NCBI RefSeq assembly: GCF_025362505.1
Contig: NZ_JANYGG010000062.1
Location: 1-63,339 of the forward strand
Length of the DNA stretch: 63,339 nucleotides
Reading direction: 5' to 3'
Source of the DNA: Sphingomonas sp.
GTDB taxonomy: Bacteria > Pseudomonadota > Alphaproteobacteria > Sphingomonadales > Sphingomonadaceae
The stretch's first letter is position 1. Each line of letters opens with the position of its first letter. Below, one piece after another: positions 16,457 to 24,141 of this stretch. The notes beneath the pieces were generated by a model. That model ran no database searches, had not been told where the DNA came from, and saw only the letters and a list, made by a program, of their open reading frames with translations. The position numbers and the translations under genes are program-made.

Positions 16457-17227
16457 ATGGAAACCCTGTTCGATTTCTTCGCCCGGCTTTCGGCCACCGC
16501 CAGAAGCGCCATTGACGAAGCGATCGGACAGGGGATCAATCCCGAAAACAAAGCTGAGGGCTCGCACTACGATCCGGTCACCGCGGTGGACAGGGAAGTA
16601 GAGCGGGCCCTTCGCGCGATGATCGAACAACACTTCCCCGAGGACGGGATCGTCGGCGAGGAATATGACGCAATCCGCGAAGACGCGCGCCGCGTGTGGA
16701 GCCTCGATCCGATCGACGGCACCCGGCAACTGGTGTGCGGGTTGCCGACGTGGACGGTGCTGGTCGGGCTGGTCGAGGATGGCGTGCCCGTAGCCGGGAT
16801 GATCGACACGCCGCGGCTCGGTGAGCTTGTCTTGGGCGATTCGAGTGGGACGATCTTTTACGAAACCTCGCAACGCCTGCGCACGAGCGGTTGCAAGACC
16901 CTCGCTGAGGCGCGGCTCTCAACCACCGATCCATACCTCTTCGACGCCGATGCCGCGCCGCGGTTCGAACGCCTGCGCAAGGCCGCGCAACTGACCCGCT
17001 TCGGCCTCGACGGCCACGCTTACGCCCGCATCGCCCACGGTACGCTCGACCTCGTCGCCGAGACGGGCCTCAAGCCACACGACTGGCAGGCGCTGGTCCC
17101 GGTGGTGCGCGGCGCGGGCGGGGTGATCGGCAACTGGCACGGCGGCGACGACATGAGCGGCGGCGACGTACTCGCGGCGGCGACGCGCGAACTGTTCGAC
17201 GAGGCAATGGTCGTGCTGGCCGGTTAG
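16457..17227 (+). CDS. hisN: Histidinol-phosphatase, inositol-monophosphatase type
   Basis: 256 residues. Metal-binding motifs of the IMPase fold: IVGEEYD, WSLDPIDGTRQLVCG and the C-terminal KPHDWQALVPVVRGAGG. The family also includes inositol phosphatases. The call as histidinol-phosphatase rests on context: it converges with the his operon, whose HisB lacks the HAD phosphatase domain of the enteric bifunctional enzyme. It would convert histidinol phosphate to histidinol. Its 3' end overlaps hisIE by four bases. Confidence 0.85.
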   Translation: METLFDFFARLSATARSAIDEAIGQGINPENKAEGSHYDPVTAVDREVERALRAMIEQHFPEDGIVGEEYDAIREDARRVWSLDPIDGTRQLVCGLPTWTVLVGLVEDGVPVAGMIDTPRLGELVLGDSSGTIFYETSQRLRTSGCKTLAEARLSTTDPYLFDADAAPRFERLRKAAQLTRFGLDGHAYARIAHGTLDLVAETGLKPHDWQALVPVVRGAGGVIGNWHGGDDMSGGDVLAAATRELFDEAMVVLAG

Positions 17228-17829
17228 GCGTGCCGTTTCTTGAGTTCGGCGATGATGTCTGTCCAGGCGAGGCCGCGCGCCTTGAGGAGCACGGTGAGGT
17301 GATAAACCAGATCCGCCGCTTCCGATGTCAGCTCCGCATCATCCCCGCAGCGCCCGGCCAGCGCGGTCTCGACGCCTTCTTCGCCGACCTTTTGCGCGGC
17401 TCGTGCCGGCCCTTCTGCCAATAGTTTGGCGGTGTAGCTGGTGGCGGGGTCGGCGCTCGCTCGCGAGGCGATCACGCGTTCGAGCGAGCCGATGAACCCG
17501 ACGCCCGGCGCGCCGTCGTCGCCAAAGCAGCTGTCGCTACCGGTGTGGCAGGTCGGGCCGCGCGGGTTTGCGAGGATCAGCAATGCATCGCGGTCGCAAT
17601 CCATCCTGATGCCGACCACATCGAGCAGATTGCCCGAGGTCTCACCCTTGCGCCACGGCACCCCACGCGAACGGCTGTGAAACGTCACCAGCCGGTCCGC
17701 TATCGTCGCCTCAAGCGCCGCGCGGTCCATATAGCCCAGCATCCGCACCTCGCCCGACGCCGCGTCCTGCACGACCGCCGGGATCAGCCCGGCCATCTTT
17801 GCCCAATCCAGTGTGTGCGGATCGATCAC
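17224..17829 (-). CDS. hisI: Bifunctional phosphoribosyl-AMP cyclohydrolase / phosphoribosyl-ATP pyrophosphatase
   Basis: Catalyses steps 2 and 3 of histidine synthesis. 201 residues: HisI domain (about 1-108) with [18 protein letters not shown] and the zinc cysteines of CHTGSDSCF; HisE domain (about 112-201) with [15 protein letters not shown] and [13 protein letters not shown]. HisI and HisE are separate genes in most alphaproteobacteria, so the fused form is notable. Last gene of the his operon; its start overlaps hisF by four bases. Confidence 0.94.
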
Positions 17830-18590
17830 AGCCTCACCTCCACGCCCATCGCCGCCAAGTCCCGCTTGAGATCCGGAATCGCGATTCGCCGATCATGGAA
17901 CACGCTCGCCGCCAGCGCCCCGCTCGCGCCGATCCCGAATGCCTCGGCAAAATGCTGAGCGGATCCAGCGCCCCCCGATGCAATCACCGGCACGCCCAGC
18001 GGAACGATCGCCGCCGTCTGCAAAAGATCATATCCCCGCCGCACCCCGTCGCGGTCGATGCAGTTGAGCACGATCTCGCCCGCCCCCAGCGCCACCGCTT
18101 CGCGCGCCCACGCCACCGTTTCGCGCCCGGCGTCACGCGTCGCCTCGACCGAGCCGGTATACTGCTTGACGATCCACCGCCCGTCGCCGGCGACCAGGCT
18201 GTCGATCCCGACCACCACACACTGCCGCCCGAACGCCTCGGCCAGCTCGCCGATCAGTTCGGGCCGTTCCAGCGCCGGCGAATTGACCGAGATCTTGTCC
18301 GCCCCCTGCTCGAGTACCCGCGCCGCCTCGTCGCGGCTCCTGATCCCGCCCGCGACGCAGAACGGGATGTCGATCACCGCCGCCACCCGGTGGACCCATG
18401 CCACATCGACCCCGCGCCCCTCGGCACTGGCGGTGATGTCGTAAAACACCAGCTCGTCGGCGCCCTCGTCGCGATAGCGCAGCGCCAGGTCGACAATGTC
18501 GCCGACATCGCGATGGTCGCGAAACTTGACCCCCTTGACCACCCGCCCGTCGGCGACGTCGAGGCACGGGATGATCCTAGCGACTGGCAT
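17826..18590 (-). CDS. hisF: Imidazole glycerol phosphate synthase, cyclase subunit
   Basis: 254 residues, (beta/alpha)8 barrel. Catalytic Asp11 in [16 protein letters not shown] and the second Asp in [12 protein letters not shown] are present, with the phosphate-binding FCVAGGIRS and [10 protein letters not shown] loops. With HisH it turns PRFAR and ammonia into IGP and AICAR. It overlaps hisA by 14 bases. Confidence 0.96.
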
Positions 18591-19302
18591 GAAGTGCCTG
18601 CCTGACGGTGAACCGCCCCTCCCACAGGGCCTTGCCGACGATCGCCCCCGCCGCCCCGACTCGCTTCAAATGCGGTAGGTCGCGCAGCGTGGCGACGCCG
18701 CCTGACGCCTGCAAGGCGATGCTCGGCCAGGTGTCGACGATCGCCTCGATCAGCGGCAGGTTCGGCCCGCTCAACATCCCGTCGCGGCTGATGTCGGTAA
18801 CGAGCAGATGGCGCACCGCTGGAAAGAGTTTGAGGACATGGTCGAGCGTCTGGCCCGACCCTTCGGTCCAGCCATGGGTCGCGACGATCGCATGATTTCC
18901 CTGGATGCGGACGTCGAGCGCGAGCGTCAGGCGATCGGGTCCGAATTGCTCGAGCAGCGCCGCGAACGCCGGCGGATCATTTACCGCCAGGCTGCCGACG
19001 ACGACCCGCGCCACGCCTGCGTCGAGCAGGGTCGCGACATGCGCCGCCGAGCGCACCCCGCCGGCGACCTGCAACTTCAAGCGCGCTCCCTTGGCTAGCC
19101 TCGCGAGCAGTTCGTGCTGGCGCGGTTCCTTCGCCTTCGCCCCGTCGAGGTCGACGATGTGCGCCCACGCCGCGCCCTCGTCCGCGAACCGCGCGAGCGC
19201 CGCGGCGGGCTCCTCGTCATAGCGCGTCTCGCGCGCGAAATCGCCTTGCGCCAGGCGAACGCAGCGGCCGTCGATAAGGTCGATGGCGGGATAGAGGATC
19301 AT
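18577..19302 (-). CDS. hisA: ProFAR isomerase
   Basis: 241 residues from the ATG at 19302, which overlaps the hisH stop by four bases; a longer open frame upstream is inside hisH. Barrel motifs: [17 protein letters not shown] with catalytic Asp8, [20 protein letters not shown] and [12 protein letters not shown]. Fourth step of histidine synthesis. Confidence 0.95.
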
Positions 19303-19895
19303 GCCGACAGGAACGCTTTCAAGTAGCGCGCGCCGGGTTCGGCCGACCGCTCGGGATGGAATTGTGCGCCCCACAGATGGCCCTGCCGCAGCGCCGCCGG
19401 GATCGGCCCGCCATAGGTCACACGCGCCGCCGTCGCCGGCCCATCGTCGCAGGCGAAGCTGTGCGCGAAATAGACATGGTCGCCGTTCTCAAGCCCGATC
19501 TCCGGATGGGCCTGCTCGATCGGCGTCCATCCCATATGCGGCACCGGCCGACCCGGCGCTGCGGTCATCGCCCGCACCCGCCCGCGCACCAGCCCGAGAC
19601 AGGTCGCGTCGGCCTCGTCCGATTCCTCGAACATCAACTGCATCCCCAAACATATCCCGAGCAGCGGCTTCGTCCGCGCCTTCAACGCCGCGACCAGCCC
19701 GAGCGCCTCGAGCCGTCCCATCGCATAGCCCGCCGCGCCAACGCCAGGCAGCACCAGCCGCTCGACCTCGCCAACCAAGGTGGCATCTTTCACCAGCACG
19801 GCTTCCGCCCCGAGCCGCGCGAAGCCCAGCCGGATCGACTCGACATTGCCATAGCCCAGATCGAGAATCGCGAGGTTTGGAGGAGGTGAGCTCAC
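19299..19895 (-). CDS. hisH: Imidazole glycerol phosphate synthase, glutamine amidotransferase subunit
   Basis: 198 residues, class I glutaminase. The nucleophile lies in [15 protein letters not shown], and the His-Glu pair in [10 protein letters not shown]. Supplies ammonia to HisF. Four-base overlaps on both sides. Confidence 0.95.
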
Positions 19896-21559
19896 AGCAC
19901 GCCCTTGGTGCTCGGCAGCGCATCGCCGCGCCCCTCGATCGCCAGCCCCATGCGCAGCGCGCGCCCGAACGCCTTGAAGCAGCCCTCGACCTTGTGGTGG
20001 TCGTTGTCGCCCTCGACCTTGACGTGGATCGCCGCGCCCATCGAGTCGGCCAGGCTGCGGAAGATGTGGGGGACCATCTGGGTCGGGAGTCCGCCGACGT
20101 CGGGGGTATCGAAGCTGCCTTCGAACTTTGAAAACGGCCGCCCCGACAGGTCGATCAGCACCTCGGCGCGCACCTCGTCCATCGGCAGGGCAAAGCCGAA
20201 CCGCCCGATCCCGCGCTTGTCGCCCAATGCCACCTTCAGCGCCGCGCCCAGCGCCAGCGCGATATCCTCAATACTGTGGTGAGGGTCGATCTCGAGGTCG
20301 CCCGAGCAGGCCAGGGTCAGCGCGAACCCACCATGCGCCGCAACCTGGTCGAGCATATGGTCGTAAAATCCGATCCCCGTGTCGATCCGCCGCGGTTCGG
20401 TCCGGTCGAGGTCGACCGCCACCGCTATCCGCGTCTCCTTGGTGTCCCGCACGATCTCCGCGCGGCGGCTCGGGCGAACGGCCTCGGCCAGCCCGAACAC
20501 CGCCAGCATCGCCGCATTCTCCATTTCTGTGCCGACGGTCACCCGCACCCCACCCGGCGCCGCGTTAGGCCGGAACCGCAACCGAATTTCCGCCGAGGCA
20601 AGGCGCTGCGCAAGCCCGGCCGGATCGGCCACTTCGAGGAACAGGAAATTGCCGCCCGTGCGGATCGACCGTATCTCCGCCACCGCGCGCAACCGCTCGG
20701 CCAGCATGTCGCGGTCGGCGACCAGTCGCGCGATCCGCTCGGCGTGAAGCGGCATCCGCTCCGCCGCGAGCGCATCGGTCGTCGCCGCAACCGACAGCGA
20801 CGGCAGCGGGTATGGCGGCGACGCGCGCGACGCGACCTCGATGATCTCGGGATCGGCAATCAGGCACCCGACGCGTGCCCCGGCCAGCCCATAGGCCTTC
20901 GACAGGGTCCGCAGCACGGCGAGGTTGCCGCCGACCTCCGCGACCATGCTCGGCGTGTCGGAAAATTCGATGTAGGCCTCGTCCGCAATGACCAGCGTGT
21001 CGGGCAGCGCGGCGGCGATGCGCCTGACTTCGGCCGGCTCGACCGGGGTTCCGGTCGGATTGTTCGGCGTGCACAGGAACAGCAATTTTGGCCGCGCCTC
21101 GGCGCACGCCGCGATCACCGCGTCGCAATCGAACTGCAAATCCCCGGTCAGCCGGGCGGCAACCACCTTGGCGCCCTGCAACCGCGCGAATTGCGCGTAA
21201 GCCGTGAAGGTCGGCTCGACGATGACGATGCTGTCCTCGCCCGGCCGGCAGAAGGTGCGGATCAGCAAGTCGATCGCATCGTCGCTTCCCCGCGTCGCCC
21301 ATAATTGCGTCGGCGCGCACCCATAGAGGTCGGCCAGCCGCTGGCGAAGCGCCGCCGGCTGCGGCTCGGGATAGCGGTTGACCGACCCCGCCAGCCCGCC
21401 GCCGACCAGCGGCGCGAACGGATTCTCGTTGGCGTCGAGCTTGATCGACCGTCCGATCGGCACACCGCCCGCCGCCGCCGCCGCCGCCGTGTCGGTCGGG
21501 GGCAGGGCAAGGATCTCCGGCCGGGCAAGCCGGTGGGCGAGGGAAGCCGGGCCGCTCAT
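19892..21559 (-). CDS. hisCB: Fused histidinol-phosphate aminotransferase and imidazoleglycerol-phosphate dehydratase
   Basis: 555 residues in one uninterrupted frame. Residues 1-360 are His[31 protein letters not shown] and PLP-binding Lys221 in [14 protein letters not shown]. Residues about 364-555 are HisB dehydratase: [64 protein letters not shown] and the C-terminal LPSTKGVL. The join ([18 protein letters not shown]) has no internal Met and only a few linker residues. Both active sites look intact. A run of six GCG codons encodes poly-Ala near residues 25-30. The dehydratase acts before the aminotransferase (IGP to imidazole acetol phosphate to histidinol phosphate), so the fusion joins consecutive steps. 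I use hisCB as a descriptive symbol. Confidence 0.95.
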
Positions 21560-22809
21560 GCGCGCATCTCCGCCGCTCTCGCGTGGGCTTCGAGCCCCTC
21601 CAGCCGCGCCAGCGTTGCCGCTGGCCCCGCGACCGCCCGCGATGCCTCAGGCGTCGCTCGCAACACGCTGACCTCTTTCATGAAACTCTGCACCGTCACC
21701 CCGCCATAAGCCCGCGCCGCGCCGCCGGTCGGAAGCACATGGCTCGACCCGGCGAGATAATCGCCAAAGCTCTCCGCCACCCCATGCCCGACGAAAATCG
21801 CTCCGGCATTGCGGATCGCCAGCACCAGCGCATCGGGATCGGCGACGGCCAGGCTCAAATGCTCCGGCGCCCAGTCGTTGGCCAGCGTCACCGCTTCGTC
21901 GAGCGACTCCACGACCACCGCCTTCGCAGCCGCCATCGCGGCCCGCGCGGCGGGAATATCGCCCAGCTGCCGCTCGACCTCGGCCACCACTCGCTCGGCC
22001 AACCCAACCTGCGTCGCCACCAGCACCACTTCGGCGTCGTGATCATGCTCGGCCTGGCTGAGCAGGTCCGCTGCCACCGTCGCCGCATCGGCGCTGGCGT
22101 CGGCAATGACCATCAATTCGCTCGGCCCCGCGGGCAAGTCGATCGCCGGCCCTCCCGCCATCGCCGAGACCAAAGCTTTGGCGCTCGCTACCCACGCATT
22201 GCCCGGCCCGGCGATCTTCGCCACCGGCGCAATCTCGCCCGCGCCGAACGCCATCGCCGCCACCGCCTGCGCCCCGCCGACGGTCCAGATCGCCTCGATC
22301 CCGCACAGCTCAGCGGCCAGCGCAATCGCCGGATCGAGCCCGCCGTCCGGGCGTGGCGGGGTAACGACGACGATCTCACCGACCCCCGCCGCCCGCGCCG
22401 GGATCGCCAGCATCAACAGCGTCGAAAACAGCGGTGCATTCCCGCCTGGCACATACAGCCCGACCCGGTCGATCGCCCGCCATTGCTTGGCGACGGTCAA
22501 CCCGGGCATCGTTTCGACCGCCACATCGCGCGGCCGCGTCCCCTCGTGGAAGCGCGTCACATTGGCATGAGCCAGTTCGACTGCCGCCAGCGTGTCGGCG
22601 GGCCACTCCGCCCGCGCCCTCGCTGCGAACGGCGCGACCTCGACCAGCTTCGGCGCGGCGCCATCGATCCGCTCGGCCTCGGCGACCAACGCATCCCAGC
22701 CGCCGTCGCGCACTCGACCGACGATCCCCGCCACCGCGTCGCGAAACGCCGGATCCTCTCGCCGCGTCCGCCGGTCGAGCGCGCCCGGTCTATTCTCGAC
22801 AATCCGCAT
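21556..22809 (-). CDS. hisD: Histidinol dehydrogenase
   Basis: 417 residues. NAD- and zinc-dependent double oxidation of histidinol to histidine. Motifs: [60 protein letters not shown] and WAPEHLSL. It overlaps hisG by one base (TGATG) and hisCB by four. Confidence 0.96.
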
Positions 22810-23693
22810 CAGAGCATCATCTTTTCAATCGGCATCACCAGGATTGCCGACGCACCCGCCGCCTTCAATTTCTCCAGCGTCTCCCAGAACACCGATTCCT
22901 GGCACACCGCCTGGACCGCATAATGGCCCGGCCGCCCGGCGAGCGGGATCACCGTCGGCGCCTCGGCTCCGGGCAGGATTCGCGAAATCTCGGCCAGCGA
23001 CTCCTCGGCTGCATTGAGCACGATATATTTCGACTCCGCGGTCGCGATCACCCCGTTGATCCGCGTCATCAGCGCCGCGGCGCGCTCGGCGAGGGCAGGG
23101 GCGACCGGCTTCAATGTTCGCACCAGCACCGCCTCGCTGTCGAACACCGTCTCGACCGCGGCAAGGCCGTTGGCCTCGAGCGTCGCGCCGGTCGAGACGA
23201 GGTCGCAGACGAACTTCGCGATTCCCAACCGCGGCGCCAGTTCGACCGCACCCTTCATCGTCACGATCTCGGCCTCGATCCCGCGCTCCTTGAGGAAGCG
23301 CGCAGTGAGGCGCGGGTAACTGGTCGCGATCCGCTGTCCGGCCAGCATCGCCGTCTCATAGGCCGTCCCCTCGGGCGCGGCGATCTTGAGCGAGCAGCGG
23401 CCGAAGCCCAGCGTCGCGACCGTCTCGAACCTCGGGCTGGCGTGATCGAGCGCATATTCCTCGAGCACGTTCTGCCCACAGATCCCCAGCTCGCACACCC
23501 CGTCGGCGACGAACGTCGGGATGTCGTCGTCGCGCACGAACATCAGGTCGAGCGGGAAATTCTCGGCGCGGGCGGTCAGCGCGTTCTTGCCGCCCTGGAT
23601 CTTGAGCCCGGCGCCCTTGAGCAGGTCGCGGCTTTGGTCGCTGAGACGGCCCGACTTCTGGATCGCGATGTGGAGTCGGCTACGGTCGGTCAT
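22809..23693 (-). CDS. hisG: ATP phosphoribosyltransferase, long form with regulatory domain
   Basis: 294 residues from the ATG at 23693; upstream open frame lies inside yerC. First, committed step of the pathway (ATP plus PRPP). Catalytic part: MTDRSRLHIAIQKSGRLS, ELGICGQNVLEEY, and PRPP loop VCDLVSTGATLEANGL. A C-terminal ACT-like domain (about 215-294) marks the long, histidine-inhibited form, so no HisZ partner is needed. Many alphaproteobacteria use short HisG plus HisZ instead. Confidence 0.95.
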   Translation of the reverse strand: MTDRSRLHIAIQKSGRLSDQSRDLLKGAGLKIQGGKNALTARAENFPLDLMFVRDDDIPTFVADGVCELGICGQNVLEEYALDHASPRFETVATLGFGRCSLKIAAPEGTAYETAMLAGQRIATSYPRLTARFLKERGIEAEIVTMKGAVELAPRLGIAKFVCDLVSTGATLEANGLAAVETVFDSEAVLVRTLKPVAPALAERAAALMTRINGVIATAESKYIVLNAAEESLAEISRILPGAEAPTVIPLAGRPGHYAVQAVCQESVFWETLEKLKAAGASAILVMPIEKMML

Positions 23694-24007
23694 TTCGCGT
23701 CCTTCATGCGGTCGAGCAGCAGCCGGTAACCGCCGTTCTGCTCCTCTTTCAGGAAGCGCGCGACGCGAACGATCGTCGTCGTGCTGACCCCGGTCGCGTC
23801 GTGGATGTCGCGGTAGGTCATGCCGCCCTTGTCGAGTAATTTGGCGACCTGCCAGCGTTCGGCGAGCGTGCGCACTTCGGCCGGGGTGCACAGGTCGCGG
23901 AGGACGGCGCGAGCCTCCGCTTCGCTCCAGATCGCGGAGAGAAGCGTGGCGAGTGCATCGATCGGAGCCTCTGGAGCAGGCGATTGCGGGGCGGAATGGG
24001 GGTTCAA
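23690..24007 (-). CDS. YerC/YecD-family TrpR-related helix-turn-helix protein
   Basis: 105 residues, starting at a TTG. TrpR-like fold with a helix-turn-helix GMTYRDIHDATGVSTTTIVRVARFL near residues 62-86 (described as two motifs), preceded by LCTPAEVRTLAERWQVAKLLDKG as in TrpR. First gene of the his operon, overlapping hisG by four bases, so a role in controlling this operon is plausible but unproven. The TTG start lacks a clear ribosome site. Confidence 0.88.
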   Translation of the reverse strand: MNPHSAPQSPAPEAPIDALATLLSAIWSEAEARAVLRDLCTPAEVRTLAERWQVAKLLDKGGMTYRDIHDATGVSTTTIVRVARFLKEEQNGGYRLLLDRMKDAK

Positions 24008-24141
24008 CTGTTACACCGTGATAGAACAATGCAACGAGCAACTAGCGATGTCGGGCGCGCGCCGCAACCCCCGATCGCCGTTCAATCGCGGTTCACCAAA
24101 TGTGGCCGCAATGCGGCGACGCACTAACCGAGAGAAGAGAT

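Follow-up and report, generated by a model that had tools for sequence, protein, structure and literature searches.

The fused gene and its operon

The window, by which is meant the whole stretch of 63,339 nucleotides that was analysed, carries a tight minus-strand histidine operon with the gene order hisR-G-D-[CB]-H-A-F-[IE], the features of which are collected in Table 1. The gene of interest, hisCB, belongs to the minus strand, as the plus strand of the same interval is interrupted by stops, and its frame runs from an ATG at 21559 to a TGA ending at 19892, with zero N among its 555 codons.

Table 1. Features of the his operon in the window and the evidence on which each assignment rests
Feature	Position	Strand	Evidence
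hisR-like regulator, TrpR/YerC family, at the head of the operon (listed with a TTG start; the real one may be internal)	23690..24007	-	PF01371 74.6 bits; TIGR02531 58.9 bits
possible HisR operator, weak match	24009..24028	-	4 mismatches to published proteobacterial motif
hisG, start set at internal ATG (listed ORF from 24041)	22809..23693	-	TIGR00070 181.3 bits, from residue 123 of listed ORF
hisD, overlaps hisCB by ATGA	21556..22809	-	TIGR00069 433.4 bits
hisCB, fused histidinol-phosphate aminotransferase / imidazoleglycerol-phosphate dehydratase, 555 aa	19892..21559	-	single open frame; two Pfam domains; two NCBIfam equivalogs above cut-off
HisC domain, residues 1-355, PLP lysine K221	20495..21559	-	TIGR01141 (hisC equivalog) 283.2 bits, cut-off 276.55, residues 29-355; Pfam Aminotran_1_2 at 56-350 (E 2e-47)
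linker, residues 356-363 (8 aa)	20471..20494	-	gap between the two domain models
IGPD (HisB) domain, residues 364-555	19895..20470	-	NF002111 (HisB) 235.6 bits, cut-off 231, residues 364-555; Pfam IGPD (PF00475) at 394-535 (E 4e-56), 189.4 bits, cut-off 27; eight metal-ligand positions
hisH, 4-base overlap with hisCB end	19299..19895	-	TIGR01855 170.5 bits
hisA (listed ORF; true start probably internal)	18577..19374	-	TIGR00007 225.8 bits, slightly below cut-off 228.95
hisF	17826..18590	-	TIGR00735 307.6 bits
hisIE (fused)	17224..17829	-	NF002747 251.4 bits
candidate hisN, IMPase-type, tail-to-tail with hisIE, internal ATG start (ORF listed from 16325)	16457..17227	+	PF00459; TIGR02067

Within its genome, a draft of 138 contigs and 2.6 Mb that is 99.98% complete with 5.89% contamination, hisCB is the sole IGPD match in a profile search and the sole hisC above the cut-off, at 284.8 bits with the runner-up at 109.0. 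The cut-off of TIGR01141 is a strict one, in that four of 14 well-known control genomes have no hisC above it; the gap in the window's genome is wide.

The HisC half has K221, D193, Y196, R229 and R339, which we take to be the PLP lysine of HisC and its cofactor and phosphate contact residues. In an alignment of 64 rows, made up of the window and 63 distinct fused loci (one of them the window again), the PLP lysine is kept in 59 rows, the other five being one fragment and four proteins of an alphaproteobacterial family, f70, in which it is replaced by leucine. All eight manganese ligand positions of the IGPD half are kept in 64 of 64 rows; in the window these are H401, H427, H428, E431, H498, H521, H522 and E525, mapped by motif and spacing, and they correspond to the ligands named for plant IGPD in the accessible part of PMC10978614. 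Pairwise dN/dS ratios between the window and its 87%-identical relative L011 are 0.092 for HisC and 0.082 for IGPD, those against three congeners range from 0.09 to 0.25 and from 0.08 to 0.20, respectively, and both halves are under purifying selection.

The AlphaFold monomer model of HisCB is confident in both folds (mean pLDDT 85.6, pTM 0.72) and is matched by Foldseek to solved HisC as well as to solved IGPD structures; among the 37 chains of solved structures found by sequence search (E 1e-15), none covers both halves. Across intact fusions the linker measures 7-11 aa. The preliminary description of this DNA had read it as HisC and HisB in one polypeptide with both active sites intact and a very short linker, and on each of these points the 555-aa frame and its 8-aa linker bear it out: the HisC-HisB fusion gene in the window is real.

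The regulator-like gene at the head of the operon stands beside hisG in 31 of the 33 alphaproteobacterial fusion loci examined, in L190 on the opposite strand, and was not found in the other two (L058 and L186). It is also present in L079, L081 and the Lysobacterales-type locus L292, and was not found beside hisG in the other eight loci examined that are not alphaproteobacterial fusions; these eight include E. coli and the Bacteroidota fusions. According to the accessible part of PMC9413887, HisR is the first gene of the his operon in most Proteobacteria that have it, and is present in Xanthomonadales and in some Rhodobacterales and Caulobacterales. The operator motif occurs with at most two mismatches in 13 of 29 loci scanned, 10 of the 13 being fusion loci. 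A strong HisR operator in the window was considered and rejected, as no match was found there at up to three mismatches and a match as good as the four-mismatch one just upstream of the hisR-like gene was reached in 20 of 300 shuffles.

Distribution of the fusion

The fusion recurs in other Alphaproteobacteria and in a few Bacteroidota, and such sequences are not rare. Proteins covering both HisC and IGPD, which the preliminary description had proposed to look for in databases, were indeed found across the Alphaproteobacteria and in Bacteroidota. At least 25 loci are fused in one stop-to-stop frame (80 named loci of 583 confirmed), and one of the fusions, L046, lies on a complete chromosome, that of Sphingomonas sediminicola (NZ_CP060782.1). 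The fused taxa among the matches listed are Sphingomicrobium, Sphingosinicella, several species filed under Sphingomonas, Sphingorhabdus soli, two Caulobacteraceae, SAR116/Puniceispirillum-type and unclassified Alphaproteobacteria, and two Bacteroidota metagenome-assembled genomes.

Frequencies were obtained from samples of the genus, family, class, phylum and Bacteroidota that overlap in part. Within the window's genus a full-length fusion is present in 25 of 37 genomes searched (its own included), several of which are single-contig genomes; in one further genome (G010) its frames are broken, and the remaining 11 gave no match for IGPD. The fusion is also present in three of five genomes of a second family of the order (f2), and in seven of 199 genomes and four of 96 genera of the window's own family, the rest of which consists of 182 genomes with an IGPD match lacking the HisC part and 10 with no match at the threshold. 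The class-wide sample holds six full-length fusions in 289 genomes, and additionally two with a degenerate HisC half (f70), one split over contigs (G344) and one tentative case (G342). In the phylum-wide sample of 349 genomes, as judged by match rows, the only full-length fusion is that of the window's own genome, accompanied by four of the f70 type. One Bacteroidota order has the fusion in one of 148 genomes, and the family of the second Bacteroidota genome in four of 148, the first Bacteroidota genome again among them.

The genus genomes that have no IGPD match are G005, G012, G014, G015, G016, G019, G023, G025, G026, G034 and G036; five of these (G014, G015, G019, G023 and G025) are without a match though 99-100% complete, and are possible histidine auxotrophs.

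Several candidates for further fusions were rejected. In the actinobacterial loci L064-L077 hisC and hisB are separate genes, and L063, which matched over residues 2-554, is spread over several frames and was excluded from the fused count. A search of a plasmid collection gave, for the 15 of 867 matching records considered, two-piece matches of 40-43% identity, 11 of the 15 being annotated as separate hisC and hisB.

Origin of the two halves

The IGPD tree comprises 85 hand-chosen rows, among which the IGPD of G342 (L183) is labelled as a fusion row despite its tentative status; the HisC tree comprises 86 rows, with the f70 proteins and L183 left out. In the IGPD tree every fused IGPD falls with HisNB, the fusion of a HAD histidinol-phosphatase with IGPD, and a 99-100% branch splits off the 24 monofunctional HisB rows from Alphaproteobacteria, Actinobacteria and others. 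All but one of the 35 alphaproteobacterial fusion rows form one supported set (95/90), the exception being the long-branched L190, and this set lies within a wider one that it shares with gammaproteobacterial HisNB only (98/97); a closer tie to Lysobacterales-type HisNB has weak support (72/88). The two Bacteroidota fusions are nested in Bacteroidota HisNB.

A single origin of all fusions is rejected, both by the AU test on IGPD (p=3.2e-4) and in the HisC tree (p=1.7e-6). The AU test also rejects a grouping of the alphaproteobacterial fusions with alphaproteobacterial monofunctional HisB (p=6.8e-5), and in the HisC tree a grouping of fused HisC with 19 of the 21 separate alphaproteobacterial HisC rows is rejected (p=9.8e-8), the two rows omitted from this test being placed among operon-type HisC. 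One clade of alphaproteobacterial fusions gives p=0.21 for IGPD and is weakly rejected for HisC (p=0.024); there may have been more than one fusion event in the Alphaproteobacteria, or a later exchange of HisC. Because one clade of all fusions is rejected and the Bacteroidota fusions sit within Bacteroidota HisNB, HisC seems to have taken the place of the HAD phosphatase ahead of IGPD at least twice overall. On its placement in the IGPD tree and on the AU tests, the IGPD of the window is assigned to the HisNB lineage and not to the usual alphaproteobacterial HisB; it matches the HisNB model NF003937 over profile positions 164-355 only (285.1 bits, cut-off 443).

The order of the genes at fused loci is mostly G-D-CB-H-A-F-IE, some being without hisD at the locus and L190 without a visible hisH, and that at gammaproteobacterial and Lysobacterales-type loci is G-D-C-NB-H-A-F-IE. 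Two alphaproteobacterial loci have HisNB together with a hisC that is turned outward. The preliminary description had derived the fusion from a hisC lying beside hisNB, with the HAD domain lost, and this derivation is upheld by the fall of the fused IGPD with HisNB and by the HisNB-type operon order. It had started from the enteric order, with hisC directly before hisNB; as a refinement, the nearest operon kin appear to be of Lysobacterales type and not enteric, given the weakly supported tie and the shared hisR gene.

One conceivable intermediate is a HisC-HAD-IGPD triple fusion. In five loci (L286, L288, L293, L294 and L297) hisC and hisNB share a reading frame and a single stop codon divides them, so that loss of the stop would yield such a protein. 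It was not seen in the loci examined; the 720-786 aa ‘open frames’ of the survey, which had suggested it as an intermediate, read through stops, the fetched loci having separate stop-to-stop frames for hisC and hisNB, and this candidate was rejected.

The phosphatase step

The loss of the HAD domain from the IGPD protein raises the matter of the histidinol-phosphatase step. In none of 10 alphaproteobacterial genomes with an intact fusion does HAD HisN exceed its cut-off, weaker hits being present in four and none in six, and the window's genome gave no match to the HAD HisN model at E 0.001. All 10 genomes have an IMPase-type hisN candidate, at 216-274 bits and in every case below the TIGR02067 equivalog cut-off of 275.15. 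The candidate of the window scores 241.6-241.9 bits and is the best in its genome, with a runner-up at 157.9; the best TIGR02067 hit in two HisNB genomes and two Bacteroidota fusion genomes reaches 106-147 bits. The model gives hits in all 14 control genomes and exceeds the cut-off in two. In three fusion loci (L058, L186 and L191) hisD and hisCB flank an IMPase-family gene, at the spot where HisNB operons have the HAD domain. Each of the two Bacteroidota fusion genomes tested carries a free-standing HAD gene above the cut-off (159 bits at G543:C1:492408-492845; 151 bits at G544:C386:96-533). To judge from these profile scores, the phosphatase step is probably carried out by the IMPase-type hisN in the Alphaproteobacteria and by the free-standing HAD gene in the Bacteroidota. 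A separate IMPase-type hisN in place of the HAD domain had already been suggested for the window from the initial reading, and the absence of HAD HisN above its cut-off from all 10 genomes, together with the candidate in each, below the equivalog cut-off though it is, lends support to the suggestion.

Second hisC copies and a family with a decayed HisC domain

In G050 and in both Bacteroidota fusion genomes the fused HisC is not the sole hisC, as a second one above the cut-off is present. A more far-reaching state is found in f70, represented by four genomes (L184, L185, L303 and L304), where leucine replaces the PLP lysine of the fused HisC and the domain has shrunk to about 280 residues. A separate hisC (296-302 bits) is present in both f70 genomes tested. 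Pairwise dN/dS within f70 is 0.18-0.46 for the decayed HisC domain and 0.09-0.17 for IGPD, and the predicted fold of the domain is HisC-like (pLDDT 82.8; TM-score 0.68 to 1gey, by target length), in a structure model whose alignment includes intact relatives. By its residues and substitution rates, the f70 HisC domain is predicted to be catalytically dead yet still constrained, if less so than its IGPD.

Two observations may be set beside this family. G342 (L183) may be a further eroded fusion, albeit tentatively, for the survey profile alone reached the HisC end, from position 267; follow-up searches gave no HisC family or profile hit in it. Balneolota HisB is reported, in the accessible part of PMC8305728, to have a short N-terminal domain unlike HisN, and this might be a similar decayed partner domain.

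Alternative explanations

The chance that the fusion is an assembly artefact, or a pair of genes with a missed stop, is negligible. The window's genome is a contaminated draft in many contigs, and several relatives have hisC and hisNB in one frame with a single stop codon between them; however, the identical single frame recurs in 25 of the 37 genus genomes and on the complete chromosome of L046, and the stop-to-stop frames of fused loci contain no stop. A frameshift or assembly error at the joint, a concern raised in the preliminary description, is thereby ruled out by independent assemblies. It is also improbable, if less extremely so, that adjacent hisC and monofunctional hisB genes fused directly, in an operon of the order G-D-C-B-H-A-F in which a HAD domain was never present. 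The unfused order is known (L298 has G-D-C-B-H-A-F-I-E), and in actinobacterial loci such as L064-L074 the frames of hisC and hisB are divided by one stop codon, but a 99-100% branch separates the 24 monofunctional IGPD rows from every fused or HisNB IGPD, a union of the alphaproteobacterial fusions and the monofunctional HisB of the same class is rejected at the level given above, and the Bacteroidota fusions fall inside Bacteroidota HisNB.

The remaining alternatives concede the fusion and question its consequence. Were the transcript to yield a separate IGPD by internal initiation, the joining of the two frames would matter little, and the window does have, 12 codons ahead of IGPD, an ATG accompanied by an SD-like stretch; at -18 codons an ATG is common to eight loci of SAR116 or related type. 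This is nevertheless very improbable: no internal start near the HisC/IGPD joint recurs from one lineage to another, six loci (L013, L023, L024, L028, L029 and L061) have no ATG, GTG or TTG from 25 codons before the joint to 12 after it, and the SD-like stretch is absent from L011 and from six of the eight loci with the -18 ATG, being present in two. Slightly less credible still is the notion that the HisC half has by now become chiefly a structural or regulatory appendage of IGPD. Such is probably its condition in f70, where the lysine is lost and the domain shortened yet kept, with a HisC-like predicted fold and a separate hisC in both genomes tested, but in the window's genome the fused HisC is the sole hisC above the cut-off and its active site is intact.

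Proposed function, origin and architecture

From the sequence evidence assembled above, HisCB is very probably an enzyme with two activities that catalyses successive steps of the histidine pathway, and it would have arisen from a GDC[NB]HAF[IE] operon by loss of the HAD domain, with an independent event in the Bacteroidota. The C-terminal IGPD would dehydrate imidazoleglycerol phosphate to imidazole-acetol phosphate, which the N-terminal HisC would transaminate to histidinol phosphate, so that the two active sites on one chain would perform steps 6 and 7, both of them presumably active in vivo. The ancestor would have been a compact operon of the order just given, where hisC, at its 3' end, was linked in frame with the IGPD portion of hisNB as the HAD portion between the two was lost; for this a single in-frame deletion, spanning the stop codon of hisC and the stretch that codes for HAD, would be enough and may have been the route taken. 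The histidinol-phosphatase step would then fall to the separate IMPase-type hisN, and the corresponding event in the Bacteroidota would have been an independent one.

As for the architecture, the N-terminal sheet of IGPD forms the outer surface of a 24-mer, according to the accessible part of PMC10978614. Since HisC is attached N-terminally, as HAD is in HisNB, it would sit outside the IGPD shell, and HisC dimers may thus be pictured on the outer face of a shell of 24 subunits, the 24 chains allowing 12 dimers. Channelling of imidazole-acetol phosphate, which the preliminary description had raised as a possibility, and a kinetic benefit are conceivable. A bolder model, which we regard as doubtful, would make the IGPD shell a platform that has repeatedly accepted N-terminal partners (HAD and HisC), with 12 HisC dimers passing imidazole-acetol phosphate from site to site, and with the coat of f70 being dead and structural or regulatory.

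Histidine biosynthesis is a standard case of gene fusion shaping a pathway. Against this background, a fusion of consecutive steps that appears to have been reached at least twice upon loss of a phosphatase domain provides a natural replicate for asking what fusion selects for. As HisCB puts a dimeric PLP enzyme on a shell that is expected to be 24-meric, a proximity effect on the keto intermediate should be directly measurable, and the lysine-less f70 family would serve as a natural control for it.

Comparison with known systems

In automatically annotated databases, proteins of this kind carry the label ‘multifunctional fusion’. Fani et al. (2007; PMC1963479) describe, in the part accessible, five fusions, in which hisA, B, D, E, F, H, I and N take part and hisC does not, and the accessible part of a 2023 review (PMC10138114) counts seven genes in his fusions, hisC not among them. 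A 2021 survey of Bacteroidota (PMC8305728) reports a bifunctional hisNB for every one of the Bacteroidetes it considered, and no hisC fusion is named in its accessible text, nor in the corresponding parts of PMC3896937 and PMC11237513. The HisC-HisB fusion is absent from the his-fusion lists of PMC1963479, PMC10138114 and PMC8305728 in so far as these are accessible, and among the matches listed from open-licence full-text literature no title or abstract opening concerns it. The many published examples that would have made the fusion commonplace, as the preliminary description had allowed, were thus not encountered in the open-licence literature or in the accessible parts of the his-fusion papers, and on that footing hisC has not previously been counted among the his genes that form fusions.

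A close known relative is HisNB (E. coli HisB, NF003937/PRK05446), in which a HAD histidinol-phosphatase lies N-terminal to IGPD. HisCB shares with it the IGPD lineage, the operon position and a partner on the N-terminal side, the IGPD part of HisNB matching residues 362-555 of the window protein; in contrast, the partner is HisC and not HAD, the N-terminal HAD (DDDD) phosphatase domain that is the hallmark of HisNB is absent from the window protein, and the steps joined are the consecutive 6 and 7, where HisNB joins 6 and 8. The fusions hisIE, hisHF (HIS7) and hisIED (HIS4) are likewise in-frame unions of his enzymes, none of them with hisC as far as PMC1963479 is accessible. Stand-alone HisC (of the 1fg3/7szp type, PF00155, TIGR01141) has the same fold and active site, to which HisCB adds a C-terminal IGPD. 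Finally, the Lysobacterales-type operon hisR-GDC[NB]HAF[IE] has the same gene order (L292), a hisR-like first gene and, with weak support, the nearest HisNB IGPDs, but unlike the window it keeps hisC and hisNB as separate genes and retains the HAD domain.
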